Positions 4,499-48,433 of a DNA stretch of 64,000 nt are shown here, one piece after another. Source of the stretch: an uncultured Lachnospiraceae bacterium (lineage in GTDB: Bacteria > Bacillota > Clostridia > Lachnospirales > Lachnospiraceae). A program made the position numbers and the translations under genes. The DNA lies in contig CAMWFQ010000014.1 in the NCBI GenBank assembly GCA_947173495.1, positions 62,001-126,000 of the forward strand, written 5' to 3'. The notes beneath the pieces were generated by a model, which was not told the DNA's origin, did no database searches, and was given only the letters and a program-made list of their open reading frames with translations. Every line of letters starts with the position of its first letter. The first letter of the stretch is position 1.

Positions 4499-4510
4499 GG
4501 TTTATAAGTT

Positions 4511-11936: not shown

Positions 11937-11943
11937 TAATTTT

Positions 11944-13431: not shown

Positions 13432-13469
13432 ATATGTGACTGGGATAAAAAAATGCAGTGTGGAGAGCG

Positions 13470-13500: not shown

Positions 13501-13671
13501 GCGGACTTGGAGTATCATGTCAGTTTTTGCTATTCACGGCCAATGTCAGTTACTTTTTCACGGGGATGGACATATGCGCCCCTTGCCATTTCATTCCCCA
13601 GAGCTTATAATTTCCTTTGGAGAGATGCAGGAGGGCAGTAACAACTGAGAAGGGCAGGGAACCGGCGAATT

Positions 13672-14739: not shown

Positions 14740-14773
14740 GGAGACAGAAAACACCATTGCGGGGGTGATATTT

Positions 14774-15295
14774 GTGGTGATACAAACAGAAAGATTGATC
14801 ATCCGGGATTTGGAAACAAGAGATGGCATAATTTTTGCAAATATGGCCTCTGATGGCAGCCTTCATGATATTGGGTTTGATATCGGGTGTCACAGTTGGA
14901 TAGATGAATGGATGGCCGAAGCACGAGAGCTTGCAGACAAGGATAATCCGAACGCCGATTATCTGGCTTACACTTTGGAACGCAAAGATACCCGGGAAGT
15001 GATCGGTTCCGTGGGATGTTCATATTATGAGGATATGGAGAAAATTGGTATTACCTGTTTTGTCGGGGCAGAATACAGAAATCAAGGCTATGCCACAGAG
15101 GCAATAGCGGCATATGCCCGGTATTTCTTACAGCGATATAGGCGGGATGAAATGATTGCGACCATCAGAGAAGATAATGCGCCTTCCTGGAGGGCGATAG
15201 AAAAAGCCGGATTTATCTTGAAAGCACGAAAAATGTATCAGGATATCAATGATGAGACAGAACAGATGTATCGGTTCTATTGTTATAGTGGGTGA
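14774..15295 (+). CDS. GNAT family N-acetyltransferase
   Basis: RimJ/RimL-like GNAT fold: begins VIQTERLIIRDL and has the acetyl-CoA loop region EYRNQGYATEAIAAYARY (about residues 95-112) and the NAPSWRAIEKAGF motif. GTG 14774 (or GTG 14777) is preferred as start because GGGGGTGA lies 6 nt upstream; a longer frame from 14705 would overlap hydE. Inserted between hydE and hydG, which are normally neighbours; substrate unknown. Confidence 0.8.
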   Translation: MVIQTERLIIRDLETRDGIIFANMASDGSLHDIGFDIGCHSWIDEWMAEARELADKDNPNADYLAYTLERKDTREVIGSVGCSYYEDMEKIGITCFVGAEYRNQGYATEAIAAYARYFLQRYRRDEMIATIREDNAPSWRAIEKAGFILKARKMYQDINDETEQMYRFYCYSG

Positions 15296-15327
15296 CAAAC
15301 AACAGTGATTAAGTACGGAGGATTGGT

Positions 15328-33482: not shown

Positions 33483-33657
33483 CCCGAAAGCTGCGCCGTT
33501 TCCGAAAACATTTTTAATACTGTCTTATGAGTGCCGCCCGTCAGGCTGATCTTTTTTAGTAAAAAGTTTGATTTTCATATTTTGTCCCTGTAATGTTCAT
33601 AATAATATGGAGAAAAAGCAAACTTAAAAGAAATCAGAAAGGACCTTGGGTAAAATT

Positions 33658-34632
33658 ATGTGTACAGCAGCTACCTATAAAACAAAGGATTTTTATTTTG
33701 GACGAACATTGGATTATGAATTTTCTTACGGTGAAGAGATTACAGTGACACCACGTAATTATGTGTTTCATTACAGTACAATGGGCGTAATGGAGAACCA
33801 CTATGCAATGATCGGCATGGCTCATATTGCGGATGGATATCCGCTGTATTATGATGCAGTCAATGAGAAGGGACTTGGCATGGCAGGGCTTAATTTTGTG
33901 GGAAATGCTGATTACAGGCAGGAGAAACCGGATCAGGACAACGTGGCCGTCTTCGAATTTATTCCCTGGGTCTTAAGTCAGTGCGCCTCGGTAATGGAAG
34001 CGCGGAAGCTGCTGAAAAGGATCAATCTGACGGACAGAAGATTTAACCAGACACTTCCTGTGGCGGAGCTCCATTGGATCATTGCCGACAAGGAAGAGGC
34101 CGTAACGGTGGAATCCGTGAAGGAGGGGATTCGGATATACGACAATCCGGCAGGGATTCTTACCAATAATCCGCCCTTTGATGAGCAAATGTTCCAGCTG
34201 AATAATTATATGCATCTTTCCCGCAGGGCGCCGAAGAACTATTTTTCAGATAAGCTTCCTTTGCACGCTTACAGCAGAGGGATGGGCGCAATGGGTCTTC
34301 CGGGGGATCTCTCCTCCCAATCCCGTTTTGTGAGGGCGGCATTTGTAAAAATGAATGCATTATCCGGAGATTCAGAGTCGGAGAGCGTCAGCCAGTTTTT
34401 TCATATCCTTGGATCTGTGGATCAGCAGAGGGGATGCTGCGAGGTGGAAGAAGGAAAATTTGAAATCACCATCTATACCTCATGCTGTAATGCGGACAGA
34501 GGAATTTATTATTATACCACGTATGATAATCATCAGCTCACTGCTGTGAACATGCGGAAAGAAAATATGGATGGCAGTGAGCTCATCAGATATGCGCTTG
34601 TGCTGGGAGAACAGATCAGATGGCAGAACTGA
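33658..34632 (+). CDS. choloylglycine (bile salt) hydrolase family protein
   Basis: Ntn-hydrolase of the linear-amide C-N hydrolase family: bile salt hydrolase or penicillin acylase. The start must be ATG 33658, because it gives MCTAATYKT with Cys2 exposed as the catalytic N-terminal nucleophile; an upstream TTG frame would bury it. Other active-site residues: Arg16 and Asp19 in FGRTLDYE, Asn pair in ILTNNPPFDEQ, and Arg in SRFVRAAF. 324 residues, typical of bile salt hydrolases, and a gut habitat supports that reading. Substrate not provable here. Confidence 0.88.
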   Translation: MCTAATYKTKDFYFGRTLDYEFSYGEEITVTPRNYVFHYSTMGVMENHYAMIGMAHIADGYPLYYDAVNEKGLGMAGLNFVGNADYRQEKPDQDNVAVFEFIPWVLSQCASVMEARKLLKRINLTDRRFNQTLPVAELHWIIADKEEAVTVESVKEGIRIYDNPAGILTNNPPFDEQMFQLNNYMHLSRRAPKNYFSDKLPLHAYSRGMGAMGLPGDLSSQSRFVRAAFVKMNALSGDSESESVSQFFHILGSVDQQRGCCEVEEGKFEITIYTSCCNADRGIYYYTTYDNHQLTAVNMRKENMDGSELIRYALVLGEQIRWQN

Positions 34633-35575: not shown

Positions 35576-35648
35576 ACAGAATTTGCGCGCTGCAAGGATT
35601 CTGTTGTCATGAATGAAAGCATCGGCCAGAAACAGCCGATGCTTTCAT
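35576..35648. terminator. R3 hairpin repeat and terminator-like stem downstream of cotJC
   Basis: ACAGAAT (35576-35582) with ATTCTGT (35598-35604), then TGTCATGAATGAAA (R3 repeat, compare 9905). Next to it a perfect 14-bp stem at 35613-35626/35635-35648 with an 8-nt loop. This separates the phosphoesterase from the end of cotJC; no T-run on the plus strand, a weak one on the minus. Confidence 0.6.
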
Positions 35649-35693
35649 GCTTATATCTACTTAAATCAGTATGGTTCGTTTACAAGGCTCTTC

Positions 35694-35786
35694 CTAGCAT
35701 TTACACTTGTCAAACTCAGGATTAAACGCATAGAAGTTCTTTGAATCCAGCTTATCCTGAACGATGCGGAGAGCTTCACCGAAACG
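35694..35786 (-). CDS. cotJC: cotJC exon 3 (C-terminal 30 codons and stop)
   Basis: Minus-strand frame from the 14-bp core CGTTTCGGTGAAGC (35786-35773) reads RFGEALRIVQDKLDSKNFYA... and ends EFDKCKC then TAG at 35696-35694. This is the usual end of CotJC and is missing from exon 2, whose frame runs through the same RFGEA and then leaves homology. No start codon or ribosome-binding site of its own, so it is meaningful only after joining to exon 2. Confidence 0.88.
   Translation of the reverse strand, partial: RFGEALRIVQDKLDSKNFYAFNPEFDKCKC
35773..35786. other. element A attachment core, left copy
   Basis: GCTTCACCGAAACG, identical to 41316-41329, in direct orientation. Lies inside the cotJC coding frame at the exon 3 border. 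Confidence 0.88.
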
Positions 35787-35803
35787 GGAGGATTGAAGTG
35801 AAT

Positions 35804-36148
35804 CTATCTGTTGATTTTCTGCATTTTCTTGATAATGGACTGCCAATACATGCGGTCTTTCAAGACCCGGATTACCGTAATCGTGGAATCCTCCACAACA
35901 AAGAAGATTAAATATGTACTATAAGGCTTGAAATAAATGCTCAATCCCTCAATCACATATCCCGTAGCTTCATAGCCCTTGGGAAAGGAATCCAGTTCCT
36001 TGATTGCCTTCTTTATCTTTTTTGAAAAGTTTTCCGCATATTCACGATATTTGAAAGTGTCGAGAATATACTTTTTGGTTGACTTAATATCCAGAAGAGC
36101 ATCTTTGGAAATCACGATTTTGTATTTTTTAGGTCTATCCATAGGCAT
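35804..36148 (-). CDS. ParE/RelE-type toxin
   Basis: 114-residue small basic protein of the RelE/ParE toxin superfamily: KYKIVISKDALLDIKSTKKYI start and a C-terminal beta-rich YLIFFVVEDSTITVIRVLKDR. Starts within the antitoxin stop (TAATG, 1-nt overlap), the normal toxin-antitoxin coupling. Ends only 17 bp from the element A core. Whether it targets gyrase or mRNA is not decidable. Confidence 0.85.
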   Translation of the reverse strand: MPMDRPKKYKIVISKDALLDIKSTKKYILDTFKYREYAENFSKKIKKAIKELDSFPKGYEATGYVIEGLSIYFKPYSTYLIFFVVEDSTITVIRVLKDRMYWQSIIKKMQKINR

Positions 36149-36318
36149 TATATTTTGTCAATTTCCTCCCATGCTTCATCAATCGTATAAACATCGCCCT
36201 TTTTCATACTGTCTATTCCCCTGGAGAGTTCGTCATATAATGCGCCTATGGCTGCTTTTTCGGAATAATCTGTTTTTAGGACTTCTTGATTTCTAATTGC
36301 TTGTGCTGCAGGTGCCAT
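36148..36318 (-). CDS. antitoxin of the ParE/RelE pair
   Basis: 56-residue protein beginning MAPAAQAIRNQEVLKT and ending YTIDEAWEEIDKI. ATG 36318 follows GGAAGTG; a longer in-frame start is less likely. Short, acidic, directly upstream of and overlapping the toxin gene, so called antitoxin by position and size. Could stabilise element A in the vegetative genome. Confidence 0.75.
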   Translation of the reverse strand: MAPAAQAIRNQEVLKTDYSEKAAIGALYDELSRGIDSMKKGDVYTIDEAWEEIDKI

Positions 36319-36434
36319 AGTATCACTTCCTTTCAATGATTGATTTTATTATACGGTATTTAGGATTGGCTTATCAACAGATTTTTATTAAAATATTCTC
36401 AAAACTGTGTGTCTTAGGCTTTCATGGTTAATCG

Positions 36435-37958
36435 TTAAATGTTCCAAGTGATTTCAATGTTTCCGTCTGCAATCCGAATAACTTTGATGAGCGTATCGAC
36501 TACCGCCTGTCTGTCCTCGAAAGAGAGCGTTTCCCATGTTTTCACATGATTGGTTATCTGCTTCAATCTGTCCTCTGTATCTGTGACATTAGCCGTAACG
36601 ATTTCTTCCTGCAAGGCTTTTCGCTCTGCGTCCAGTTCTGATACTTTTTCGTCTATGTATTTCATCAGAACGCCGCTTGCCCCGGACACTTTGGAGAGAA
36701 GCTCTTCGATTTCTTCCTCAATCTGTGTCAGACGGATTTTTTTCGTCATATTCGTTTGTTCTTCTCCTGTGTCAGATAGACAGGAGAGTAAGCTCTCTTT
36801 GAGAGCTGAAAATTCTGACAGTCTTTCCTTGATTGCACCAAGCATATATTCTTCCAAAATGTCCGCATAAATCGTACAGCCTGCCCCGGTACAGTTGCTT
36901 CTACGGCTTCCCGACTGGCTGCAAACAAAGTAACGTCCCCACTTTGTTTTTGCCTTGCGGATTGTCAGCGCATAACCGCATTTGCCGCATTTTACCTTAC
37001 CAACGAGCCATGAATTTTTAGGCTTGCAAGTCTTTGTTGACTGTCGGTTGTTCAGACACCGTATGCGGCAGGCTAACCATGTCTTAGAGGGGATAAAACC
37101 CTTATGCGGCGCAAGCACAATCTCTTTGTCGGACAAATCACTTTGCTTTCTTGAAGTGGAAACCGTACCCTTGTAGAGATAGCAGGCATTGTAACCCGTA
37201 AAATCACTTGCCGGATTACAGATGGTTGCACCTTGACTTTGGAAAAACTGATACACGTCAATATCGGCTTGCACATACACGGGATTGCGGAGCATTTCAC
37301 TGATACGGGCGGTATTCCAGTTTGCACCGCGCAGATTTTTAATCTGATGTTCATTTAAGTACCGTACAATATCCCCAAGGGAATTGTCCGTGTCCACATA
37401 CATGGAGTAAATCAGCTTTAGCTGTTCGCTTTCCTCCGGGACTTCCTCGTACATGGACGTACGGATATTGTCAATGACTGTGTTCGTCAGACGGTAGCCG
37501 TAGGGAATACGTCCGCCCATGTAGAAGCCGCGCTTACATCTTGCATAATAAGCGTCTGTTACGCGCTTTTGTATGGTTTCCCGTTCCAGTTGGGCGAACA
37601 CGATACAGATATTTAACATCGCCCTGCCGATTGGCGTGGACGTGTCAAATTTTTCCGTGGAAGAAACAAACTCCACATGATATTTCTGAAATATCTCCAT
37701 CATGTTTGCAAAATCCAAAATGGAACGGCTGATACGGTCCAGTTTGTAGACGATAACCCGTTTGATTTTTCCTGCGCGAATATCATTCATCATTTTTTCA
37801 AAGCCGGGGCGGTTGGTGTCCTTGCCCGAAAAACCTCTGTCCGTATATTCAATACAGGCTTCCCCGTGGGTTTCGTATCTACAATACTCAAGCTGGCTTT
37901 CCACGGATATGCTGTCCTTTTTCTCGATTGACTGTCTTGTATATAATGCGTCGTACAT
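36435..37958 (-). CDS. large serine recombinase of element A
   Basis: 507-residue site-specific recombinase. Resolvase catalytic domain at residues 1-150 with nucleophile Ser10 in YTRQSIEKK and arginines in YKLDRISRS; Recombinase DNA-binding domain about 160-290; zinc ribbon CGKCGY...C...C about 325-370; coiled-coil and C-terminal part to the end. Intact frame with AGGAGGT 7 nt before ATG. Encoded at one end of element A in cotJC direction, as expected for the enzyme that excises it. Confidence 0.93.
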   Translation of the reverse strand: MYDALYTRQSIEKKDSISVESQLEYCRYETHGEACIEYTDRGFSGKDTNRPGFEKMMNDIRAGKIKRVIVYKLDRISRSILDFANMMEIFQKYHVEFVSSTEKFDTSTPIGRAMLNICIVFAQLERETIQKRVTDAYYARCKRGFYMGGRIPYGYRLTNTVIDNIRTSMYEEVPEESEQLKLIYSMYVDTDNSLGDIVRYLNEHQIKNLRGANWNTARISEMLRNPVYVQADIDVYQFFQSQGATICNPASDFTGYNACYLYKGTVSTSRKQSDLSDKEIVLAPHKGFIPSKTWLACRIRCLNNRQSTKTCKPKNSWLVGKVKCGKCGYALTIRKAKTKWGRYFVCSQSGSRRSNCTGAGCTIYADILEEYMLGAIKERLSEFSALKESLLSCLSDTGEEQTNMTKKIRLTQIEEEIEELLSKVSGASGVLMKYIDEKVSELDAERKALQEEIVTANVTDTEDRLKQITNHVKTWETLSFEDRQAVVDTLIKVIRIADGNIEITWNI

Positions 37959-38038
37959 TCTATCTACCTCCTAAAACGTAAGACGCAATACCCAATGTCA
38001 AACAGATCATATCGTTTCCATGATTTTTTGCAAGGGAC

Positions 38039-38254
38039 TTACGCATATTTCTTAAAAATCTGATAGAGCCTTGCCCCGATTTCCTGTCGGGTTTCCTGCT
38101 CTGATTTTTTCTGAAAGGCGGGGTAGATGTTGGTAACGGTCAGCCTCATTTTATCTATGGAAAGACTTTCTTCCATGAAAGGCTTTTCTTCATTGGAAAG
38201 GATTTCCATTCGTATCTGGGTATCGGGTGTAGGAGAGTTATTAGTTCTTGGCAT
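38039..38254 (-). CDS. short ORF upstream of recombinase A
   Basis: 71-residue charged protein (MPRTNNSPTPDTQIRMEIL start, KKSEQETRQEIGARLY near the end). AAAGGAG 7 nt before ATG. 80 bp upstream of the recombinase on the same strand. The opening resembles small transposon-encoded proteins of Clostridia, but no function is known. By size and position it is a candidate recombination directionality factor; this is inference. Confidence 0.65.
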   Translation of the reverse strand: MPRTNNSPTPDTQIRMEILSNEEKPFMEESLSIDKMRLTVTNIYPAFQKKSEQETRQEIGARLYQIFKKYA

Positions 38255-38690
38255 AAACTTTCTCCTTTGACGGTTTCCCTAAATTTTATGAGAAGCGGCA
38301 AGTACACTATACGGGAATAGCGAAAACTCCGCGAGCAACGAGCCAAACGGACGTGCTTGCACGTACATTTGGCGACTGCCGCGAGAGTCACATACTGCAA
38401 AGTATGTGACTCTCCCCTCTACAACTTACTACGCACGGGAGGTAAAGATTGAAAATTGAAATTTTCAATCGCGAGATTTGTGTCTGCGCGTTGCTTGCCA
38501 CAAACTTGTTTGTTAAGCATATTATATGCTTTAGCCATATCATGGCTTTGCGCAACAAAGCATCGCAGAAATGGAGTAAAAAATGGAAAAGTTTCCGGGA
38601 AATTTTATAAAAAGTTTAGAATTTTGCGTGTTGGGAAGTTTCCCAAATCTTCTTGAATAACAGAAAAATACACCGGAAAATGACAGTATA
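38255..38690. other. gene-free stretch with nested stems in element A
   Basis: GCGGCA (38295-38300) pairs with TGCCGC (38377-38382), enclosing a GCCAAA/TTTGGC stem with inner ACGTGC-tt-GCACGT. Directly after comes a perfect 14-bp stem with GCAA tetraloop (38383-38396/38401-38414). Further on, GATTGAAAATT/AATTTTCAATC (38447-38470). Could be an RNA leader, a DNA-processing site or a terminator. No gene seen. Confidence 0.5.
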
Positions 38691-39149
38691 TCATTCATCA
38701 TTCCCTGGCGTTTCTCCGCCGAATTGATAGCCGGCACCTAACACGGTTTTGATGTAGGTCGGTTTTTTGCTGTTCGGCTCTATCTTTTTCCGTAAATTAT
38801 AAATCACGTTGACAACGCTTGAATGGCAGCTATCACTGTCCATCTTCCAAACGGCTTCAAAAATCTGCGTCTGTGAGAGGACAATGCCGGGACTGGAAGC
38901 AAGGAATACAAGGATACTGTATTCAAGGCGGATAAGGTTGACGTCCTCCCCGTCTTAAAATACCCGGCGGTGGTTTTGCCTTGTTTCCAGTCCCGGAAAT
39001 GACATTCCCGAAGCAGGAATAGGGATAGTCTGAATGGCCTCAAGCTCTATATAATTAGACAAAGCTGCTATGATTTTGTCAATCACTTTTTCCTCGTGTT
39101 CATTAAGTGTCAGTACTAATATTTTACTTATGCTATTACTACCTCCCAT
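38691..39149 (-). pseudogene. OmpR-type winged-helix regulator with internal stop
   Basis: Frame starts MGGSNSISKILVLTLNEHEEK and reaches TAA at 38957-38955. The same frame continues without further stop as a clear OmpR-family winged helix (LEYSILVFLASSPGIVLSQT, WKMDSDSCHSSVVNVIYNLRKKI, IKTVLGAGYQFGG) to TGA at 38691. A single nonsense codon thus separates the halves. The N-terminal part is too short for a full receiver domain. Confidence 0.75.
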
Positions 39150-39169
39150 TAAATAGGTGTGCTTTCACA

Positions 39170-40009
39170 TTATATGCCATAGTAATGTTGAATAGCGTGT
39201 GCAATGTATTCAGAACAGCCGTTCCCATACTGATTATCGGTTTCTTCTGCAAGTTTTTCTCTCTGTAAATATTCTTTTGCCAAATCAAGCAGGATATTTC
39301 TTGCATTATCAAGTGCAAACATTGTTTTGTAATTCTCCACAAGCATTTCAACAGCAGAATATGCCATATCCATATTGTCAGTTTCTTTTGCAGCCATAAA
39401 TTGTTTATAGATTTTGGCATTATTCTCTTGTTCTTTTTTTATTTCTTCGGTATTCCCGGTTGAATGCATGACTGCTTCCATTGCTTTCTCTTTGCTGCCA
39501 TACCATTTCAATAAGTCTGCGGTAGCCTGCTCATTGGCAAAGCCAGATACCAAATGCTCTTTGTACTTTTCCATACTTCCGTATTTCTGTACCTGTTCGT
39601 CAAGACTTTCTTTTGACATACATTCTAAAGTATGGTTTACCATTTTCTGTACTTCGTCATTGCTAAATGCTCCAAAACTCATAGTATTAACGCCTTTCAT
39701 TACATCTGTTATTAACTCAATAATCCCATTTAGTCGATTTCGCTTCTGCTCCAATAAAGATTTTTGAGCTAATAAAGCCTGTTCTTTATCATAATTAGGG
39801 CTATCCATGATTTTTTTTATGTCTACCAATGGAATTTCCAATTCTCTAAAGAACATAATTTCCTGTAATTTTTCTAATGCTTTGTTGTCATAGAGCCGAT
39901 AACCAGCTCCCGTTAATTTTGTTGGCTTTAATAAACCGATTTCATCATAGTATCTCAACGTCCTTATACTTATTCCGGTTATCTCCGACACGTCCTTTAC
40001 GGTTTTCAT
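39170..40009 (-). CDS. MerR family regulator with TipAS-like domain
   Basis: 279-residue regulator: MerR helix-turn-helix KDVSEITGISIRTLRYYDEIGLLKP (positions within residues 3-30), coiled-coil dimer helix to about residue 110, then a TipAS-type antibiotic/ligand-binding domain (MVNHTLECMSKESLDEQVQK onward). ATG 40009 follows AGGAGG. Preceded by a promoter with the long spacer typical of MerR control, so probably autoregulated. Cargo of element A. Confidence 0.9.
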   Translation of the reverse strand: MKTVKDVSEITGISIRTLRYYDEIGLLKPTKLTGAGYRLYDNKALEKLQEIMFFRELEIPLVDIKKIMDSPNYDKEQALLAQKSLLEQKRNRLNGIIELITDVMKGVNTMSFGAFSNDEVQKMVNHTLECMSKESLDEQVQKYGSMEKYKEHLVSGFANEQATADLLKWYGSKEKAMEAVMHSTGNTEEIKKEQENNAKIYKQFMAAKETDNMDMAYSAVEMLVENYKTMFALDNARNILLDLAKEYLQREKLAEETDNQYGNGCSEYIAHAIQHYYGI

Positions 40010-40029
40010 TATTTCCTCCTTTCGGTTCA

Positions 40030-40060
40030 ATCGTAAACCGTTACGCTACGAGAGAGTCAA
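40030..40060 (-). promoter_or_regulatory. MerR-type promoter with 19-bp spacer
   Basis: On the minus strand TTGACT (40060-40055), 19-bp spacer, TACGAT (40035-40030). The spacer holds an imperfect dyad (TCGTA...TACGA). The over-long spacer is the hallmark of MerR-activated promoters. Confidence 0.7.
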
Positions 40061-40109
40061 TACTCAAATTAAATTTTTTTTAATTTTTTTTATTGATGAT
40101 TATAAATAA

Positions 40110-41037
40110 CTCAAACTTTGCACATAGATTTTAGTTATGCAGAGAAGCATAAAAACAGTTCCCCCATAGAACGGGTATCGTTTGATTCCCGGTTCTCCAC
40201 GGAAAGCATCATATATCTTGTAAAAACGATTGCTATATGGGCAGTCATTGCATCATAAGATATAGATCTGCATTCTTTGCTTAGCTTAAGATGACTCTTG
40301 CAGACTTTGAAGAATACTTCAATATCCCAGCGTTTTCCATAAATGCGGATAATCTCTTCCTCGCTCAGGCCCACGTCCGTGGAAATGAGACAGAGATATT
40401 CGTTTCTCTTGTTTTTGTTACGGATATAGACCACTTTGGCAGGGATGGTCTTTCCTTGCTTTACGAGAAGAACACTGTTGACCGGGAGAAAAGTTCTTCC
40501 ATCTGACCAGCCTAAGGTAAGCATACGGAAACCAAATTTATAACAATGTTTTGCATGGTCATATGCCTTTGCAAGAAGTTCCACTTTTTTGGAACGGTTA
40601 CGTTCAAACATGGAATCGTCAATGATCAGCACGTTGGCACGGTCTGCTGAATCAAGCGGGGCAATGGCATCCTTAATGATTCGGCTGGATAAAATCGTTG
40701 TGAACCGAAGCTAGTTGATACTTCTGTTTGAAAATATCAAAAGAAACAGATACTGGAAGATCAGTGCTGCGTGAATTCCCTTTTTTTATATGCATTAGCA
40801 GATTTCAATACAGAAGAAAGATGAAACCGTGTAAAAAATCTTCTGATAGATTTCGAAATCTGGTTATCATTCTGGTTGTCTTGTGTTATACTTTTATTCA
40901 TAGCATGATCCTCCGGATATATGATTGTTTCTGAACAACTCAATTATATCAAAACCGGACGGTTTCATGCTATTTTTATGCCAGTTATTATTGAATTTTC
41001 AAGGTGTATAGGCACTTATTCAAGTGCGAAGTTTGAG
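40110..41037 (-). mobile_element. degenerate insertion sequence (DDE transposase remnant)
   Basis: 928 bp bounded by imperfect inverted repeats CTCAAACTTTGCACAT (40110-40125) and AAGTGCGAAGTTTGAG (41022-41037; 14 of 16 complementary). Inside, on the minus strand, an N-terminal transposase piece (MNKSITQDNQNDNQIS, from about 40901) breaks into several frames, and a C-terminal catalytic piece (IIDDSMFERNRSKKVELLAK...YGKRWDIEVFFKVCK, 40135-40632) remains. IS4-like DDE type; not active. Confidence 0.75.
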
Positions 41038-41225
41038 AATATAATACATCTGACACGACAGAGTGGCATAAAATATATGATGATAATATAACTGCATTTG
41101 CTACTACGATAGGCGCTGCAGGAATAAATGTTATTCTTGATAGGACAAGTTCTAAAAAAGCTGAATTGCAAAATAATGATTTTTTCTTTTTGTGGAAATT
41201 GCAAAAGGAAAATAAACAGAAGTGA
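41038..41225 (+). pseudogene. C-terminal fragment cut by the insertion sequence
   Basis: Plus-strand frame directly after the IS end reads ...SDTTEWHKIYDDNITAFATT...LQKENKQK to TGA at 41223. No start or ribosome-binding site; its front part was lost to the IS insertion. Family not recognised. Confidence 0.5.
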
Positions 41226-41315
41226 TACATTTTCTTAAACAAAATTTGATAAATGGGTATGCGTCTTAATTATTGTTTTTTTGTGTGTTCTGATTTACTG
41301 CAATCTTCCCGGTTC

Positions 41316-41329
41316 GCTTCACCGAAACG
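41316..41329. other. element A attachment core, right copy
   Basis: GCTTCACCGAAACG, identical to 35773-35786. Lies at the end of exon 2, in the same codon phase as the left copy. Confidence 0.88.
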
Positions 41330-41446
41330 CTGGAAGTGTACGATTTCGCGGGCACGCAGGAATTTGATAGGTTCGCATATATCCGGTTCGTCCTTTACCA
41401 GGCGCAGGATATTGTCGTAGGTTGTGCGGGCCTTCTGCTCTGCTGC
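41316..41446 (-). CDS. cotJC: cotJC exon 2 (middle 44 codons)
   Basis: Minus-strand frame from core GCAGC (41446-41442) to core CGTTTCGGTGAAGC (41329-41316) reads AEQKARTTYDNILRLVKDE... then REIVHFQRFGEA. It contains ExxH (EIVH), the second metal-binding motif of manganese catalases, absent from exon 1. The open frame extends beyond both cores into element sequence (upstream to ATG 41467, downstream as NREDCSKSEH), but there is no ribosome-binding site. No stop or frameshift inside the exon. Confidence 0.88.
41442..41446. other. element B junction core, left copy
   Basis: GCTGC, direct repeat of 47460-47464. A CCATAT shared a few bases further (41449-41454 and 47464-47469) is an alternative crossover that would add one Val codon but keep the frame. 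Confidence 0.65.
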
Positions 41447-41544
41447 AACCATATAAGAACAACTCATGCTTATTGAGCTTGCTCAATAAGATTGGGTTAA
41501 TAGTTTTATGGAGCTAGGGAAGTATTGATTAATCAGCGATTTCC

Positions 41545-43104
41545 TTAGAAATTCCAGTGAATTTCAATCGGAACGTCCTTTGTTCCAGGTATACGTTTTC
41601 CCACGGACACATAATCAATCAGTATTTCCACGATTTCACGGGTAAGGTGTTTTAGATTGGTGTATTGCGAGGTGAGTTCGCGGCGGTTATCGCCAGCCGC
41701 AATTTTTTCTTCGATTTCAGATAACTGTTTTTCACCGTCTGCGACTACACGCTCCAAACGGTCGCACTCTGTGGTAAAGTCCCTTGACATTTCCACATAA
41801 TCGCTTTCGGACAGCAAGCCCTTTACCTTATCCATGTAAAGCTCTCGAATACCTTTTGAGTATTCTGCAATCTTTTTTTCATAGACTGCCATGTCAGAAA
41901 GCAGATGGGCTTTTTGTTCCTGCAAATTATCACAAAATTTTATGTTTTGTTCTAACTCGTCTTTGTCAAGATATTCCGCTGCCAAATGGTTAAGCTCGTT
42001 GATCACAAGTTGTTCTAATTTATCAACGGAGATAAAGGAACCGATACAAGCGTCCTTTGATATATGGCGGCTTGAACATTTTAGATAATGTCGGTCATGG
42101 TTTTTAGAAGAACTCATTGTGTAGCCGCAGTTAGCGCACCGGGCTTTTCTTGCGAACAGACCTATTGTGCCAATCGTGAAAGGCTTTGCTTTTTGCGAGA
42201 TTAACGACTGTACTCTGTCCCATAATTCACGTTCAATGATCGGCTCGTGAGTTGCCTCGACAATATACCATTCGTTTTTAGGGCGGGGCTTGTTCTGCTT
42301 TGTCTTATAGGATACGCTGCCGTATTTGCCCTGTACCATATTTCCGATATACATTTCGTTTGTAAGCATATCGGAGATAGCAAAGTATTTCCATAGAGAG
42401 CTGTTTTTGGTTTTGGGCTGCTGGTAGCGCAAACCATGCAGACGCTTGTATTCAGTTGGATTAGGTATGCCCCTGTCATTGAGCATACGGGCGATTGCAG
42501 TTTTTCCGTAACCTTGTGAAAACAGAGTAAATACTTCACGGACAATGGTTGCGGCTTCTTCGTCAATTATCAAGTGTCCCTTTTGATCGGGGTCTTTCTT
42601 GTAACCGTAGAGAGCAAATGCGCCAATATGAAAACCGTTTACCCGTCTGTTTGTCAAAACGCTGCGGATGTTTTCGGACATATCCTCTAAGTACCATTCA
42701 TTGACAAGCCCGTTGATCTGGCGGGATTTTTTGTTTCCCCTGTTTGCGGTGTCCGCGTTATCAACAATACTGATAAAGCGAATGCCCCAGATCGGGAAAA
42801 GTCCATGTATGTACTTTTCTACAAGCTCAAGCTCACGGGTGAAACGTGACTGCGTTTTGCAGAGGACAATATCAAATTTATGCTGCTCCGCGTCGTTTAG
42901 CAGACGGTTAAATTCCGGGCGGCGTCTGTCTGCGCCTGCATAGTCATCGTCGCTGTAAATGTTATAAAGTTCCCACCCTTGTTCCATGGCATATTGCAGT
43001 AACATTGATTTCTGGTTTTGGATGCTGCCAGAGTCATCGGTTTCAGATTGTTTGTTTTTGTCTTCCTCGGATAAGCGGCAGTAAATAGCTGCTTTCATAC
43101 TCAT
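41545..43104 (-). CDS. large serine recombinase of element B
   Basis: 519-residue TndX-like serine recombinase. Catalytic Ser12 in YCRLSEEDK, resolvase domain to about residue 155 (CKTQSRFTRE), Recombinase domain about 170-290, zinc ribbon CANCGY...C (about 335-365), coiled-coil and the family's C-terminal VEILIDYVSVGKRI...IEIHWNF. Start preceded by AAGGAGGG. Located 100 bp from the exon 2 junction. Clearly different in sequence from recombinase A, so the two elements entered separately. Confidence 0.93.
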   Translation of the reverse strand: MSMKAAIYCRLSEEDKNKQSETDDSGSIQNQKSMLLQYAMEQGWELYNIYSDDDYAGADRRRPEFNRLLNDAEQHKFDIVLCKTQSRFTRELELVEKYIHGLFPIWGIRFISIVDNADTANRGNKKSRQINGLVNEWYLEDMSENIRSVLTNRRVNGFHIGAFALYGYKKDPDQKGHLIIDEEAATIVREVFTLFSQGYGKTAIARMLNDRGIPNPTEYKRLHGLRYQQPKTKNSSLWKYFAISDMLTNEMYIGNMVQGKYGSVSYKTKQNKPRPKNEWYIVEATHEPIIERELWDRVQSLISQKAKPFTIGTIGLFARKARCANCGYTMSSSKNHDRHYLKCSSRHISKDACIGSFISVDKLEQLVINELNHLAAEYLDKDELEQNIKFCDNLQEQKAHLLSDMAVYEKKIAEYSKGIRELYMDKVKGLLSESDYVEMSRDFTTECDRLERVVADGEKQLSEIEEKIAAGDNRRELTSQYTNLKHLTREIVEILIDYVSVGKRIPGTKDVPIEIHWNF

Positions 43105-43183
43105 TCGTTTTTATCCCTCCTTAAGAGATAAAAACAAGCCTGCTCCATGCACCTATTATACATGGCAACAAATAACTTGCAAA

Positions 43184-43369
43184 TTATCGTTTTCCTTCAA
43201 CTGATTTATTGTTAAACACAGGGGTGGCAGGTAAAGCCTGGTATCTGTTGTTTTTTTCAAGCTGGTTGATAAGGCTGATCCATGCTTTGGTAAAATTATC
43301 TTTAGAAGTTGTGCTTTCACCATTTTTAAATATATTTTTGCAAATATTTTTTGGATCTGTATTGGACAA
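43184..43369 (-). CDS. short ORF upstream of recombinase B
   Basis: 61-residue protein starting at TTG 43369 (GGAAGG, spacing 7): (M)SNTDPKNICKNIFKNGES... ending NKSVEGKR. 79 bp before the recombinase, the same layout as the short ORF of element A but unrelated in sequence. Function unknown; candidate directionality factor by size and position only. A longer frame from TTG 43399 is possible. Confidence 0.55.
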   Translation of the reverse strand: MSNTDPKNICKNIFKNGESTTSKDNFTKAWISLINQLEKNNRYQALPATPVFNNKSVEGKR

Positions 43370-43399
43370 GATATCACCTTCCTTTGAACTATATGACAA

Positions 43400-44189
43400 C
43401 GTATGTAGAATTACTTGTACGTTATGCTGATCTTATGAAAATGAAAGTTGTTGAAAGATTTTTCAAATTTTTGAAATTGTTTTTGAAAAATTTTTACCTT
43501 TCACTAATAGCAGACGGGAGATGGTAAAAAGTAAGCAGTTTATAGAAAGTTTATAATTTTTATTTTTTTCTTAGATTTTTTGGATTGGGTTGTTGTTTTA
43601 TAAACAGAAAATAATAGTATATAGTGCATAGAATATGCCAAGAGCCGAGGGTATGGGGCGCTGGACATCCGGTGGATGTCCGCTTAGCGCGGACCCAAGC
43701 GGAGCGTAGACCGGAAGCTCCATCAAGTAAGCTGGAGCAACTCAAAATGTATACAGTGGGTTTTGAGTTGCTCCGGTGAAACTTGCTTTTTATTTGCTTT
43801 TTTATTAATACATTTTTCAACATGAATGCGAATAATCTAAAATGCTTGGCTCCGAAATATTTCAACAACATTTCTGTAAATGAGTATGATGTGACGCGCA
43901 TATCCCGGAATACCGGTCATTACTGGTATTATAAGAACCGGGCATCCCATCCATACCACTACGACAGGGCGAACACCCTGCGGCAGGCGGTACGGAGTAT
44001 CCGGGGCATAGCAAGTGGCAGTTGAATGTCAAGAGGGTACATTCCCCGCTGCTTGCAGCGTACAAACTAAAGCCGAACATAGTGAGGCATGGGCTGATAT
44101 CCCGTAGCTTGCTACGTGGAGTGCTTCATTGGAAGAAAATAATTGAGAGTGAGAGCCGGACACGGGTGTCTAGCTCTCATTAAAATTGT
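43400..44189. other. gene-poor part of element B with strong hairpins
   Basis: No confident gene. GGACATCC-ggt-GGATGTCC (about 43663-43681) is nested in a GCGCT/AGCGC stem. GGAGCAACTCAAA with TTTGAGTTGCTCC (about 43734-43773) is a perfect 13-bp stem. A frame from ATG 43822 to 44025 (+) reads MNANNLKCLAPKYF...RSIRGIASGS; it may be a real small protein or a fragment, unrecognised. GAGAGC/GCTCTC stem at about 44152-44178. Looks like debris of earlier mobile DNA. Confidence 0.4.
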
Positions 44190-44242
44190 AATTATAATTA
44201 AGGAATAAAATTTCATAAGAAAAAGACTTTAATTATAATTAA
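44190..44242 (+). promoter_or_regulatory. paired AT-rich palindromes before the antitoxin gene
   Basis: AATTATAATTAA at 44190-44201 and 44231-44242, 41 bp apart (about four helical turns); the second is part of the 14-bp palindrome TTAATTATAATTAA. A TAAAAT -10-like hexamer follows at 44250. Typical position for antitoxin autoregulation. Confidence 0.5.
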
Positions 44243-44310
44243 CTTGTGGTAAAATTATTTTGTTGAGTTGGGCGATGAAATTGATGATACCGATAAGGGA
44301 GTAGGGCAAA

Positions 44311-44511
44311 ATGAAGAAAGAATTGGTTCCGATGGAACATTTAAATATTGGAGAATATAACCGTGGTCAGGCATCGAAATTAATTCGTGGACTGGCTGAG
44401 AACGATAAAACAGCTTTTATCCAGAAGAACGGAAAGCCCATAGCGGTTGTGATTTCTTATGAACGATATGCGCGTTTATTTAAAGCGGGTATTGATATTA
44501 ACGAGTATTAA
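44311..44511 (+). CDS. Phd/YefM-type antitoxin-like protein
   Basis: 66-residue protein: SKLIRGLAENDKTAFIQKNGKPIAVVISYERYARL is the Phd/YefM fold (N-terminal DNA-binding half). No toxin gene follows; instead a DNA methylase begins within 25 bp. So it is an orphan antitoxin or a small regulator of the methylase. Confidence 0.7.
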   Translation: MKKELVPMEHLNIGEYNRGQASKLIRGLAENDKTAFIQKNGKPIAVVISYERYARLFKAGIDINEY

Positions 44512-44534
44512 ACTATAGTAAGGGGGATGCCCGT

Positions 44535-45704
44535 CTGGCACTGAAAAAGTATGGAGTAGTATATACGCCGGATAGGCTTGCGGATTTTGTTGCCAAGCTT
44601 TTGTCAGAAGAAATGAAAAAAGACTCTGTTGATGGTGGAATGATTCTGGATCCAGCTTGTGGTGAATGTGCACTTTTAAAAGCGGCAGAAAAAGAGTGTG
44701 GTTCTCAATACAAGTATTACGGAATTGATGTAGATAAAGAGGTGGTTTTTCGTAACGCTAAGGGAAGAATTCTCGTGTGCAATGATAGTATTTTACCAAA
44801 AAACGTAAAAAAGAATACCGATAAATATTGGATAGAGAAGCTTGGTAGAGTACAAGCCATCATTGCAAATCCACCTTGGAGTTCTGAAAAAATATACAGT
44901 AGAGAACAACTGAGCGATGCAGGTTTTGATTTGATAAAAGGTCAGTATGACAGTTATGTGCTATTTGTAGATTTGGCATATAAAATTATAGCTGATGGAG
45001 GGTACTTTGCATTTATTTTACCTGATTCATTGTTCGATGCTCAGAACATAAGTCTTCGAGAGTTTCTGGTAAGAAACACAGAAATTAAGATTATAGCCCG
45101 GCTTGGTGAAAAAATTTTCAGTGAAGTCAATAGAGCTACAACAGTAATAATCTGTAAAAAAGTTGTTCCAACTGATATTTGCAAAACAAAGTGTTTTAGA
45201 TTAACGACTGATGATAGGAAAGCATTTTTGAATGGAGAAAACACTCTGTATTATTATTATTATATAGAGGGTTTCCACAAGGTTACTCAAAGTAGATTTT
45301 GTCGGAATGGTAATTACTTGTTCGATATTGACATCAGAGAAGAAGAGGAAATTTTAATAAGTAAAATAAGGGAACAAGGAGTTGATTGGAAAGATTTATT
45401 TCTATTTGGACGAGGTGTAGAGATTTCTAAGACGGGAAATGTTGTTTGCTGTCCTCATTGTGGAATGGCCCAGGGCTATAAAAAGAAGCAGTTAGAGGAA
45501 GGAAAGAAAAGCTGTTCTTTTTGTGAAAGATTCATTCCTGTAACGAGTGATACCGTTCAAAGTGTTGTTTCAAAGAAAAGGATTAAAAACAGCGTAGCGT
45601 TATATGTGCAGGAAAGAAATTTAAAAAGTGTTTTCGGGAGGGGACAAAAAGCCCCCTGCTGGGAACATCAAGGAGGACAAAGAGAAGTTCACGGAGAAGA
45701 ATGA
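44535..45704 (+). CDS. N6-adenine DNA methylase, truncated
   Basis: Eco57I/TaqI-type methyltransferase: KKYGVVYTPDRLADFVAKLL opening, motif I LDPACGECALL, motif IV IIANPPWSS, and TaqI-like specificity region GRGVEISKTGNVVCCPHCG. No ATG/GTG/TTG lies before the conserved opening in this frame (frame opens at 44502), so CTG 44535 with AGGGGG 8 nt upstream is the best guess; TTG 44601 would lose the YTP motif. The tail after about 45635 (RGQKAPCWEHQGG) is unlike the family and indicates truncation by a junction. No partner endonuclease seen. Confidence 0.7.
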   Translation: MALKKYGVVYTPDRLADFVAKLLSEEMKKDSVDGGMILDPACGECALLKAAEKECGSQYKYYGIDVDKEVVFRNAKGRILVCNDSILPKNVKKNTDKYWIEKLGRVQAIIANPPWSSEKIYSREQLSDAGFDLIKGQYDSYVLFVDLAYKIIADGGYFAFILPDSLFDAQNISLREFLVRNTEIKIIARLGEKIFSEVNRATTVIICKKVVPTDICKTKCFRLTTDDRKAFLNGENTLYYYYYIEGFHKVTQSRFCRNGNYLFDIDIREEEEILISKIREQGVDWKDLFLFGRGVEISKTGNVVCCPHCGMAQGYKKKQLEEGKKSCSFCERFIPVTSDTVQSVVSKKRIKNSVALYVQERNLKSVFGRGQKAPCWEHQGGQREVHGEE

Positions 45705-45857
45705 CGATGCCATTGCAGTGAACATGGGGCTAGAAAGGGCAATTCGATGCGGGAATGAGAAAGGAGAATCCGTTTATGATTCTAGGGAGCTTGTGATCCT
45801 CTGACAGGGGCAAATCTGTGATGCAGGTTGAAGATTCACGGATGTGGGGAAGTACTG
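45705..45857 (+). pseudogene. short coding fragment after the methylase
   Basis: A frame crossing the end of the methylase (about 45645-45804) reads GNIKEDKEKFTEKNDDAIAV... and ends with TGA; no start or ribosome-binding site. Looks like the remains of another mobile-element gene joined here. Unrecognised. Confidence 0.3.
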
Positions 45858-45888
45858 AAAAAAGAGAGCCGGGGCAGAACCCCGGCTC
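45858..45888 (-). terminator. terminator of the Abi gene
   Basis: GAGCCGGGG (45866-45874) with CCCCGGCTC (45880-45888); on the minus strand followed by TCTTTTTTC. Confidence 0.9.
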
Positions 45889-45966
45889 CAGACCGCCCAC
45901 AGTATTGCGCCGGAAATCGGCTCGTGGGAGAAGTCGTAGATAGTATATGCGGCTGTGGAGATATTA

Positions 45967-46848
45967 TTATATTTTTTGTTGCCAGTCACTGCGGAAACCG
46001 TAATAATCCATCCGGACAAAGGGATACTTTTCTGTCAATGCAATGACAGATTTCTTCATTTCATTGAATTTATCGGCAGAAAGCAGTCGTTTCATGACGA
46101 GAAAGAAACCATAAAAATGTGCATTGTCAATATTTCCGCTGCTGTCCTTCATCAGCAGCGCCTTTTCCCTTTTGTTGAGGGAGGGCTTCTGCTCAAAAAG
46201 GCGGTTATAGATCCGGCTTCCGTGTGCACACAGATTGCGGATGATCGTCATGCTGTGCATATAGCTTCCGAGGATAGAAGCCCCCTTGTTCATAGTCAGA
46301 CCAAAAGTATGAGCAACGGCATCCTTGATGGGTTGCTCAGAAATAGAGTATAAAAACGAGATGTCGGATATAGTAAATAAATCAACGTATGCCCATAAGG
46401 GAATATCCTGCTGTAGATCATTCACAAAGTGTTTCAGATAGGCTTCATGGGGGAGCCGGCTCATTTTCTGCTGCTCTGCTTTGGCGATGATTTCTTTGTG
46501 TTTGGTTTTGTTGGTAAAAAAGTTAAGGTCAAGATAGCCGACAGACCCGTGAACTTTTGTGAATTCATAAGCATATACGGATTTCATCTGCACTTCGATC
46601 ACTTCAAGATATTGGAGGATGATGTGCCTGAGTTCATGGTCAAAGTGATAAATATCAACAATATTTTGGAATGCTACAGATTTGGAAAAGACGTTATTTT
46701 TACGGAGGGTCAGCGAATAGCCGCTGATACGGTAGTAATTATTGTGCAGCAGGAAATCTTTTGCCTGGCATTCATCATTGATGGTGAGACCGCGGGAACG
46801 GAGGATTTCCAGCTGTTCTTCAATTGTCTTAAAATCCTTATCTGCCAT
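45967..46848 (-). CDS. Abi_2 (AbiD/AbiF-like) abortive-infection protein
   Basis: 293-residue Abi_2 family protein. Family opening DFKTIEEQLEILRSRGL and LLHNNYYRISGYSL. The HEPN-type RNase motif RNLCAHGSRIYNR (R-x4-H) lies near residue 210. Such proteins abort phage infection, probably by RNA cleavage. ATG 46848 follows AAGGAGC. Own strong promoter and terminator, so an independent cargo gene of element B that could protect the cell while the element persists. Confidence 0.88.
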   Translation of the reverse strand: MADKDFKTIEEQLEILRSRGLTINDECQAKDFLLHNNYYRISGYSLTLRKNNVFSKSVAFQNIVDIYHFDHELRHIILQYLEVIEVQMKSVYAYEFTKVHGSVGYLDLNFFTNKTKHKEIIAKAEQQKMSRLPHEAYLKHFVNDLQQDIPLWAYVDLFTISDISFLYSISEQPIKDAVAHTFGLTMNKGASILGSYMHSMTIIRNLCAHGSRIYNRLFEQKPSLNKREKALLMKDSSGNIDNAHFYGFFLVMKRLLSADKFNEMKKSVIALTEKYPFVRMDYYGFRSDWQQKI

Positions 46849-46924
46849 ATCATTGCTCCTTATAAACAAAACGCCCTCAAGTGTGCGTGTGTTTCCACAG
46901 AGGCCTGAGGGAGATGTTACATAA

Positions 46925-46952
46925 ATAATACCACAAAACAGAAAAATGTCAA
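46925..46952 (-). promoter_or_regulatory. sigma-A promoter of the Abi gene
   Basis: TTGACA (46952-46947), 16-bp spacer, TATTAT (46930-46925), minus strand. Confidence 0.85.
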
Positions 46953-47010
46953 GGAACAGGATTTCTGTTTTTGAAAATTCGGGAGACGGAAATGGGTAAG
47001 ATCATATTGA

Positions 47011-47292
47011 GGATATTCAGAAGGCGGAAAGCCGGAACTGTTTGAAGATGACGTTTTTAAAATTTCTATTCCTTTGAGTAAAATAGCGGCAGATTCAGCA
47101 AAGGAAAATAAGACATTATCTAAAAGAGAACAGAAAATTTATGATATGATTTGTGAAAATATTCATTTGTCAGTGGAGCAGGTTATGGCGGAACTGGATA
47201 TTTCGAGAGCAACCGTATTTAGAGATTACGCAAAAATTAAAAGAGTTACAGGTGCATCCTATGATAAAAACACCTCAACATGGACTTTATAA
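47011..47292 (+). pseudogene. C-terminal HTH fragment of an AlbA/AAA_4-type protein
   Basis: Frame reads ...KPELFEDDVFKISIPLSKIA, then KREQKIYDMICENIHLSVEQ and a helix-turn-helix (VMAELDISRATVFRDYAKIK) to TAA. This matches the end of the ATP-binding AlbA_2-type regulators. The front is missing; a short product from TTG 47074 (72 residues, HTH only) is possible. Might still bind DNA next to the GTCTCA array. Confidence 0.55.
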
Positions 47293-47299
47293 AATCTCT

Positions 47300-47370
47300 G
47301 TCTCATTTCAGTCTCATGTAGTCTCAAATCAGTCTCATTTTTTCATATAATTTTGAGACTGACTTGAGAC
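47300..47370. repeat. phased GTCTCA repeat array at the end of element B
   Basis: GTCTCA at 47300, 47311, 47321 and 47332 (spacing 11, 10, 11 bp), then inverted TGAGAC at 47354 and 47365 (11 bp). CAGTCTCA and TGAGACTG can form a hairpin (about 47331-47361). One-turn spacing puts all copies on one face of the helix. Ends 90 bp from the exon 1 junction. Confidence 0.7.
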
Positions 47371-47459
47371 TGAAAGCGTTGATTCGTTGACGGATTATAA
47401 AATGAAGAAGACCTGTTTTATCATATTTTTCATGTTGCTTTTACGAAATCGCCCCATCC

Positions 47460-47464
47460 GCTGC
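47460..47464. other. element B junction core, right copy
   Basis: GCTGC, direct repeat of 41442-41446, located at codons 134-135 of cotJC. Confidence 0.65.
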
Positions 47465-47863
47465 CATATCCTCAAACAAATCCGTAATGGCATCTCCCTT
47501 TGACTGGAATTCACAGCTGTTAAAAGGAATGCCTCCGGCGGCCATAGGCCAGATCCCGGTGGTGTGATCCACATAATAATTTGCAAAGCCTGATTTTTCT
47601 ATCTCTTCCATGGACAGGTTCCGGGTCAGCTGATGGACAATGGTGGATACCATTTCAAGATGGGCCAGTTCTTCTGTACCGATATCCGTCAAAACAGCGG
47701 CTACTTCCCTGTAGGGCATGGAATAGCGCTGAGAAATATAGCGCATAGAGGCACCAAGTTCGCCATCCGGTCCGCCGTACTGAGACATGATCGCCTGGGC
47801 GAGTTTTGCATTAGGTTCCTTGATATTGACAGGATACTGTAATCGCTTTTCATAATTCCACAT
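47460..47863 (-). CDS. cotJC: cotJC exon 1 (codons 1-135)
   Basis: Spore-coat protein of the manganese-catalase family, N-terminal two thirds: MWNYEKRLQYPVNIKEPN start, LTDIGTEELAHLEMVSTI with the first metal-binding ExxH, and ITDLFEDMAA at the break. In element-bearing DNA translation leaves homology after codon 135 and ends five codons later at TAA 47443-47441 (DGAIS), giving a 140-residue truncated product lacking the second metal site. Follows cotJB by 3 bp with AAGGAGGATG. Full length after two excisions would be 202 residues; Bacillus subtilis CotJC is about 189. Confidence 0.92.
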
Positions 47864-47866
47864 AAA

Positions 47867-48136
47867 TTAACATCCTCCTTCCCAGGGCCAGGGCTGGGTT
47901 GCCCATTTCCATTCATTCTGTTTGCAGCTGTCAGCGTCGGAAATCCTCAAAGGACCGTATTTCGCAGCATATTCCCGCATAGCCTGATTCTGCATACGGA
48001 CATAATGGTTGAGATACTCCATAGCCTCTTTATCAGTGGGATGGGTATCAAGATACTCTGTCATTTCCACCACGACGAATCCGATAACGCCAATATCATG
48101 AAACAGCCTTTGCTGGTCATTGTTCTGCATGGTCAT
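47867..48136 (-). CDS. cotJB: spore coat protein CotJB
   Basis: Small spore-coat protein: DIGVIGFVVVEMTEYLDTHP and YGPLRISDADSCKQNEWKW...WPWEGG are the family sequence. ATG 48136 overlaps the cotJA stop (ATGA) and has GGAAGGAG 9 nt upstream; ATG 48145 would touch the ribosome-binding site. 89 residues, typical. Middle gene of the cotJABC operon. Confidence 0.94.
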   Translation of the reverse strand: MTMQNNDQQRLFHDIGVIGFVVVEMTEYLDTHPTDKEAMEYLNHYVRMQNQAMREYAAKYGPLRISDADSCKQNEWKWATQPWPWEGGC

Positions 48137-48303
48137 TTTACACATCTCCTTCCTGTAAAGGGCTTTTCAAGTTCAGGGAAAATAGTGCCTGCATCATAGG
48201 CTTTATCGAGATTTTCAAAAACACTGGTAAGATGCTGCCATGGAACATACGCCATTGCCAGCGGAAAACGGTCAAAATATTCATTAAAACTGTAATCCTG
48301 CAT
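48133..48303 (-). CDS. cotJA: spore coat protein CotJA
   Basis: 56-residue coat-associated protein: LAMAYVPWQHLTSVFENLDKAYDAGTIFPEL is diagnostic (positions 48160-48270). ATG 48303 with AGGAG 5 nt upstream. First gene of cotJABC; upstream on the minus strand CATACTAT (48349-48342) resembles a sporulation sigma -10 (cotJABC is sigma-E dependent in Bacillus), but no clear -35 was found. Confidence 0.93.
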   Translation of the reverse strand: MQDYSFNEYFDRFPLAMAYVPWQHLTSVFENLDKAYDAGTIFPELEKPFTGRRCVK

Positions 48304-48433
48304 AAATTCTCCTCTCATAAATTAGAAAGTAATCTAATAGTATAGTATGATCAGGAACTTTTCAGGTTCCGGTCTGGTCTGGTTTTTCTTTTGTCAGACG
48401 TCATTTTCGGCGGGGGTTCCGCTCGTGCTTGCC

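Follow-up and report, generated by a model that had tools for sequence, protein, structure and literature searches.

How does a sporulating bacterium make CotJC from a gene that lies in three separate pieces? The question is raised by a stretch of 64,000 nucleotides (here the window) from an uncultured Lachnospiraceae bacterium (GenBank assembly GCA_947173495.1, contig CAMWFQ010000014.1, positions 62,001 to 126,000), in which the minus-strand gene cotJC is split into three in-frame pieces by two elements, A and B, each bearing a large serine recombinase (LSR). With a probability of about 0.78, we read the locus as two unrelated serine-recombinase elements that parked in cotJC and would leave it in the sporulating mother cell. 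The evidence for this reading is the sequence of the window and of related genomes.

cotJC in three in-frame pieces

The pieces of the gene and the elements between them are arranged as follows.

47457–47863, minus strand: cotJC exon 1, codons 1–135 and the GA of codon 136
41439–47456: element A, 6,018 bp, at site J1 (codon 136)
41319–41438, minus strand: cotJC exon 2, from the rest of codon 136 to the GA of codon 176
35776–41318: element B, 5,543 bp, at site J2 (codon 176)
35694–35775, minus strand: cotJC exon 3, the C-terminal residues and the natural stop

When exon 1 is read through, cotJC homology runs to the border of codons 135 and 136 and is followed by five foreign residues and a stop, 140 amino acids in total. 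The frame of exon 1 is carried on by 41446–41316 and then by 35786–35694, where a first-pass annotation of this DNA had also located the three cotJC stretches. Joined in silico, the pieces (407+120+82 = 609 nt) restore the frame and encode a CotJC of 202 amino acids followed by a stop, in agreement with the annotation's claim that two separate elements interrupt the frame and that both have to be out for a full CotJC. The Pfam family Mn_catalase (PF05067) matches piece 1 (E 6.7e-32) and piece 2 (E 8.4e-7), and a PF05067 search of the window's own genome, G000 (4.58 Mb, 97.4% complete, 52 contigs, contamination estimate 4.35%), yielded no further cotJC copy beyond these two; the second intact gene that could have spoken against excision was thus not seen. 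Piece 3, unlike in this search, turned up in a genus-wide search for cotJC. A Mn-catalase paralogue replacing cotJC in G000 was rejected on the same PF05067 result, and no intron or other known RNA family in Rfam matched positions 35600–48400 at the gathering score.

Could the arrangement simply be an artefact of assembly or binning that joined three loci? The fragmentation of the assembly and its contamination estimate are what such an account can call on. The three pieces are, however, ordered and co-oriented on one 131-kb contig and carry the structure of attachment (att) sites, A and B also lie together on one contig in a genome of another genus (G265), and cotJC is likewise split in G270, G302, G361, G377 and G417, whose assemblies consist of only one or two contigs, which rules out assembly error to the point that we give this explanation practically no weight. 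Chance is ruled out by the many other genomes in which cotJC is cut at these codon positions and different recombinases are present.

To ask what each excision would restore, we aligned CotJC to the L. plantarum Mn catalase 1jku, taking the ligand residues of 1jku, and hence the ligand identities in CotJC, to be as we assume them. The alignment predicted five metal ligands: E35, E65 and H68 in exon 1, and E136 (completed by the join) and H170 in exon 2. A Mn_catalase domain with all five is complete only in the joined protein. Element B withholds the last 25 residues of CotJC, which, with B retained, would be replaced in silico by a 14-residue foreign tail. Excision of element A alone would give all five ligands, so CotJC activity may need only the departure of A, with excision of B supplying the C-terminal end. 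The earlier proposal that catalase activity depends on both excisions is therefore not fully supported, since by this prediction only A would have to leave for E136 and H170 to be added.

Attachment sites, recombinases and promoter motifs

The att sites have the following approximate extents.

47434–47482, minus strand: attL of A
41413–41463, minus strand: attR of A
41295–41344, minus strand: attL of B
35752–35802, minus strand: attR of B

The direct repeats that had been described at both gaps were recovered at the second as 14 bp (CGTTTCGGTGAAGC); at the first only GCAGC is exact (GCAGCRGA with one mismatch), and it is alone too short to be meaningful. We inferred attP from a comparison of attL and attR, in the window and in its relatives, with intact genes, and tested its symmetry against 2000 shuffles. 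The B-type attP was palindromic at 18–20 of 25 positions in 5/5 elements (0/2000 shuffles each), the A-type at 16–18/25 in five of six elements (0–8/2000 shuffles), and the single C-type site tested at 19/25 (0/2000). Among other J1 elements, that of G020 was moderately symmetric (15/25, 25/2000 shuffles, centre GA) and that of G004 was not symmetric (13/25, 1503/2000 shuffles, centre AG). The centre of attP is GA in six A and five B sites and GG in C, and this central GA starts the codon of E136 at J1 and that of E176 at J2. Exchange is most likely at GA, i.e., at 47458–47457/41440–41439 for A and at 41320–41319/35777–35776 for B. Because of the inferred attP symmetry we set the element borders there, which leaves the protein product unchanged from that given by the borders of the first-pass annotation; in G036, crossing at GA drops an A-to-P change at codon 135, which falls on the element side. 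The attL and attR sequences fit a single attP × attB exchange, clearly for B and for the relatives of A and weakly for the A of the window.

The recombinases, the small open reading frames (ORFs) beside them and the promoter-like sequences are listed here.

41545–43104, minus strand: LSR A, 519 amino acids (Resolvase, Recombinase, Zn ribbon, DUF4368)
36435–37958, minus strand: LSR B, 507 amino acids (Resolvase, Recombinase, Zn ribbon)
43184–43369, minus strand: small ORF A, 61 amino acids from TTG or 71 from 43399, candidate recombination directionality factor (RDF)
38039–38254, minus strand: small ORF B, 71 amino acids, candidate RDF
43398–43425, minus strand: sigmaE-like motif ATANNGTACN11CATANNNT before small ORF A
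38283–38310, minus strand: the same motif before small ORF B
43155–43182, minus strand: sigmaA-like promoter before LSR A, TTGCAA-N16-TATAAT
38006–38033, minus strand: sigmaA-like promoter before LSR B, TTGCAA-N16-TATGAT
48341–48367, minus strand: sigmaK-type promoter of the cotJ operon, AC-N16-CATACTATA

Each element holds one LSR, oriented like cotJC and near the 3′ att site: LSR A adjoins attR, and toxin-antitoxin-like ORFs lie between LSR B and attR. The two proteins are 23% identical over their aligned part. The recombinases carry Y-x-R-x-S, which we take to be the resolvase-type motif. In 13 LSR pairs with the window where dS was measurable, dN/dS was 0.04–0.11, which suggests that the recombinases have been kept working. 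Outside the window, three consecutive genes of G000 (G000:C4:29562-33279) also encode large serine recombinases.

A small ORF lies directly upstream of the recombinase in 10/10 A, 11/12 B and 6/6 C units. The small ORFs of A, B and C are mutually unlike, and two of the C units have ORFs that are only loosely alike. Small ORF A matched no PHROG family at 0.001 and its relatives gave no convincing Pfam or PHROG match; small ORF B matched no Pfam or PHROG family. The exact sigmaE-like motif was present in eight of ten A, ten of twelve B and two of six C units, one of the two B units without it (L145) ending at a contig edge. It occurs twice in the window and in none of 100 shuffles, and three times in the whole genome, the third occurrence being inside a gene on the other strand. 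The cotJC pair are the only ones of the 15 genome loci matching PF07508 to have the motif beside them, and in a set of 80 contigs it was found in one, which holds element-B remains. Its −10 part resembles that of spoIVA, a sigmaE gene: ATA[AG]..CATA[CT]NNT was found upstream of spoIVA in 25 of 30 loci. The GTACAAG box has only a partial likeness to the SpoIIID box.

Is cotJ itself placed under late control? cotJC is the last gene of a minus-strand operon whose other members, known by position from the ORF list, we name by assumption.

48133–48318, minus strand: cotJA-like gene
47867–48145, minus strand: cotJB-like gene

A sigmaK-type sequence, AC-N15-17-CATANNNTA, precedes cotJA in 12 of the 15 loci read (the window and 14 with a visible start codon), the pattern being at chance level within the window alone (2 found, 1.29 expected). 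The best sigK-family match in G000 is an uninterrupted frame of 249 amino acids, and no interruption is seen in two other genes for sigma factors, which we read as sigE-like and sigG-like. The window holds spoIVA (11965–13428) about 22 kb from cotJC exon 3; spoIVA and cotJC also share a contig, about 17–20 kb apart, in G001, G003 and G021.

In the mechanism we propose, each recombinase would be made in growing cells and would not excise its element by itself. In the mother cell, the sigmaE-type promoter would turn on the small ORF beside each recombinase, and its product, acting as an RDF, would make the recombinase excise, with exchange at the central GA dinucleotide, so that A and B would both leave as circles and sigmaK would later transcribe cotJABC from the rejoined gene. 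As the two att sets have different arms, either element should be able to leave first. The elements would lose nothing by excision, as they persist in the chromosome of the spore while the mother cell dies, and cotJC would thus be a safe parking site for a cargo of AbiD and toxin-antitoxin genes.

45967–46869, minus strand: AbiD/Abi_2 anti-phage protein, cargo of A
44601–45704, plus strand: N6 DNA methylase domain protein, cargo of A
35804–36148, minus strand: ParE-type toxin of a toxin-antitoxin pair, cargo of B
36148–36336: presumed antitoxin, by position only, cargo of B

Element B further carries a MerR-type regulator and a DDE transposase fragment. PHROGs returned no phage structural family among the two LSRs and ten further ORFs of A and B. 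An ORF of 328 amino acids (33646–34632, plus strand) looks like a bile-salt-hydrolase-type member of the linear amide C-N hydrolases.

Split cotJC in the genus and the family

To what extent is the split gene a special feature of this genome? We searched 37 genomes of the genus, of which 35 had a match. Fifteen of these are split with two-sided evidence, five show one-sided evidence, and 15 have intact copies only, i.e., the uninterrupted relatives that the first-pass annotation had proposed to look for. None of the 15 two-sided genomes shows an intact copy; G010, one of the five one-sided genomes, has one. The tally does not include second copies, 66–69% identical, in G013, G017 and G033, which would not alter it. 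The gene is doubly split in G000, G031 and G036 (J1 and J2) and in G002 (J0 and J2).

In the family survey (396 genomes, completeness floor 90; 250 with a match), an automatic rule called 94 of the 250 split, or 93 without the doubtful G372, whose pieces are probably miscalled paralogue fragments. The splits fall at codons ~31 (45), ~62 (42), ~136 (12) and ~176 (16), and 20 of the 94 genomes are split at two or more sites. Matches were listed in full for 122 of the 250 genomes, chosen for weak best, partial or many matches; as the other 128, including G000 and G001, were not so listed, further split copies may be missed, and G000 and G001 are not counted among the 94. One-sided evidence in 19 further genomes is uncounted, and G064 fits no site. 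All four site families are represented among the recombinases next to cotJC pieces in G387, the 136–176 piece not being found in its assembly. All of the 20 split genes checked join to 195–202 codons without a stop (201 in G036). In the exon comparison, dS between species is saturated and the dN/dS medians, from few pairs, are indicative only. A doubly split cotJC, to which the earlier note had drawn attention, is thus present but is a special case of a wider pattern that extends to other species and in which three sites, perhaps four, can be occupied. An account of the four sites as simply the best-conserved stretches of cotJC was rejected: across 92 distinct intact genes, their 36-nt windows had a mean identity of 0.731, which was matched by 1513 of 20000 random quadruples.

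LSR-like ORFs were present in 19/29 genus and 14/20 family stretches, and those without one are incomplete at an end or display the other side of the element. By position, the main LSR family is A at J1, B at J2 and C at J0, with others at codon 31, and variants at J2 go down to 39% identity. LSR B is 92–96% identical in other genera (G265, G387, G402), with a dS of 0.30 against G265; between G000 and G031, dS is 0.38 for LSR A and 0.56 for LSR B compared with 1.9 for spoIVA, whose dS values for G019, G034 and G036 are excluded. We read this as horizontal movement of the LSR families. Not all captures are recent, since LSR A has a dS of 0.98 against G019 and is saturated between genera. LSR B had no match in viral contigs, and a plasmid search returned two Campylobacter records that match 2% of the query, within a recombinase gene.

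Several loci carry what appear to be traces of earlier events. In L140 (G010), an intact cotJC is directly followed by element-B remains, along with the end of a ParE frame, attR and an extra exon 3 (1023–1625 and 4466–4645), and in L036 an intact cotJC stands directly before element-B remains (10001–10603 and 11184–15391); both look like a repaired gene beside the fossil of an element. L113 (G001; 957–1529, 2107–2517 and 2725–2752) has beside attR a second, broken LSR A copy with its own motif, so that two insertions stand in tandem at one site. Spare cotJC 3′ pieces lie downstream of the present elements in L128 (G019; 3265–3351) and L125 (G008; 1268–1339) and are perhaps traces of earlier insertions at J2.

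A number of observations weigh against excision in the mother cell as we propose it. The inferred attP of the window's own A is weakly symmetric (12/25, with 979 of 2000 shuffles equally good), its right arm having, by our reading of the sequence, drifted; the inferred attP of A or B was found in none of the 37 genus assemblies and was absent from the viral contigs searched. The motif is imperfect for sigmaE in its −35, its ATA-to-CATA spacing is 20 compared with mostly 19 in spoIVA, and its GTAC box is absent from the spoIVA upstream regions. The reversed pattern also occurs once in the genome, so that it is the place of the motif, not its number, that counts as evidence. No small ORF with the motif was found in seven of seven codon-31 units (one of which, L149, has a loose sigmaE-like match) or in two of two other J0 units (L150, L151), and in L160 the motif stands without a small ORF. 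The sigK match lies below the curated cut-off, as in 37/37 genus genomes. Finally, an intact copy accompanies the split gene in 22 of the 94 family genomes, and the insertions look recent, such that the exons might be whole only because decay has yet to set in; because many of the insertions look recent, the lack of stops in all 20 genes checked is no proof of function after insertion.

These intact copies also speak for a purely selfish account, in which cotJC is a convenient attachment gene, excision is rare and random and serves transfer, and a split cotJC is effectively lost. The spread of the elements between genera would fit such parking, as would a 57-kb element at J2 of G003 with ParA, RepA_N and DUF3801 genes, which suggest a plasmid-like or conjugative carrier. 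Here and below we draw on excerpts of the cited papers; according to one of them, and in keeping with this account, insertional mutants of two CotJC-type genes in C. difficile have lower catalase activity and no significant coat defect (PMC11222575). Selfish parking would leave unaccounted for the unbroken frames of all 20 genes checked, the sporulation-type motif that accompanies only the cotJC pair among 15 recombinase loci, the lack of an intact copy in every two-sided split genome of the genus, and the two genomes in which the gene looks repaired beside a fossil, as though there were an advantage in having it whole. We consider this account unlikely, though it is the strongest of the alternatives.

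Might the elements instead be kept for the benefit of the host, by delaying or conditioning CotJC synthesis as skin does with sigmaK in C. difficile, where loss of skinCd leads to early sigmaK and altered spores (PMC5025042)? In 15 of 35 genus genomes all copies of the gene are uninterrupted, the recombinase families at one site differ among genomes, and an added delay would be of little use because cotJ is already behind a late sigmaK-type promoter, which together make a host switch very improbable. Returning to elements that leave in the mother cell, we lean, with less assurance than for the window itself, towards a general picture of cotJC in Lachnospiraceae as a gene in pieces, with four standing sites of which up to three (G413) and perhaps four (G387) are occupied. 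Several independent excisions would then be needed in some sporangia to make one coat protein, each with its own recombinase and RDF and under a shared mother-cell promoter signal, and coat genes would be safe harbours in which defence-bearing elements are hidden from selection.

Comparison with known systems

The closest parallel is skin in sigK of Clostridioides difficile (recombinase CD1231, RDF CD1234), where the recombinase is sigmaA-dependent and a 72-residue RDF under sigmaE and SpoIIID limits excision to the mother cell (PMC5025042). The cotJC elements resemble it in having a serine recombinase with a sigmaA-like promoter, an RDF-sized small ORF behind a sigmaE-like promoter, and an in-frame att join in a mother-cell gene; as for skin-type elements, in silico excision restores the frame of a sporulation gene, and each element has its own serine recombinase near an att site. 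In contrast to skin, as described in the excerpt, cotJC is a coat gene and not a sigma factor, it holds two elements in one gene, the elements are 5.5–6 kb with no phage structural gene among the ORFs scanned, and excision is here proposed from sequence. In C. difficile R20291, prophage phi027 lies beside CDR20291_1465, a CotJC homologue (PMC11222575); in that strain, too, elements may attach in the region of a gene of the cotJC type.

SPbeta in Bacillus subtilis spsM likewise combines a spore-envelope gene, a serine recombinase (SprA) and a small protein, the 58-residue SprB made from a mother-cell promoter, with the target gene under sigmaK; it differs in being an active prophage and a single interruption of spsM (PMC4191935). 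Gene-intervening elements have been listed in sigK, spsM, spoVFB and gerE, with yabG added (PMC10747680). Like the cotJC elements, gin in gerE (PMC5595907), vfbin in spoVFB and yin in yabG (PMC10747680) interrupt sporulation genes, gin and yin with a serine recombinase and yin also with a 14-bp att repeat; unlike them, as far as these excerpts go, they are one element per gene, in other targets, in Bacillus or C. botulinum (PMC5595907, PMC10747680). Several elements in one gene are known from heterocyst-forming cyanobacteria, with up to four in nifD of Rivularia PCC 7116 (PMC4874684). These also bear recombinases and are excised in a terminal cell type, but the phylum, genes and cell type differ, and tyrosine as well as serine recombinases are involved (PMC4874684).

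Among the matches listed in open-licence PubMed Central, no title or abstract opening mentions an interrupted cotJC. Programmed excision in the spore-former literature, as far as these excerpts show it, concerns a few genes with one element each; here, unrelated recombinases interrupt a single coat gene at four fixed codons, as seen in over a third of the matching family genomes, and about a fifth of those have it cut at more than one site. Provided that excision is programmed, spore formation in a large gut family would routinely involve DNA rearrangement. The set supplies many new groups of recombinase, att site and small protein, and makes it possible to test directly why such elements come to sit in sporulation genes. 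Systems of this kind are known; among the matches listed in open-licence PubMed Central, a coat gene split several times over, at four standing sites in members of one bacterial family, appears to be new.

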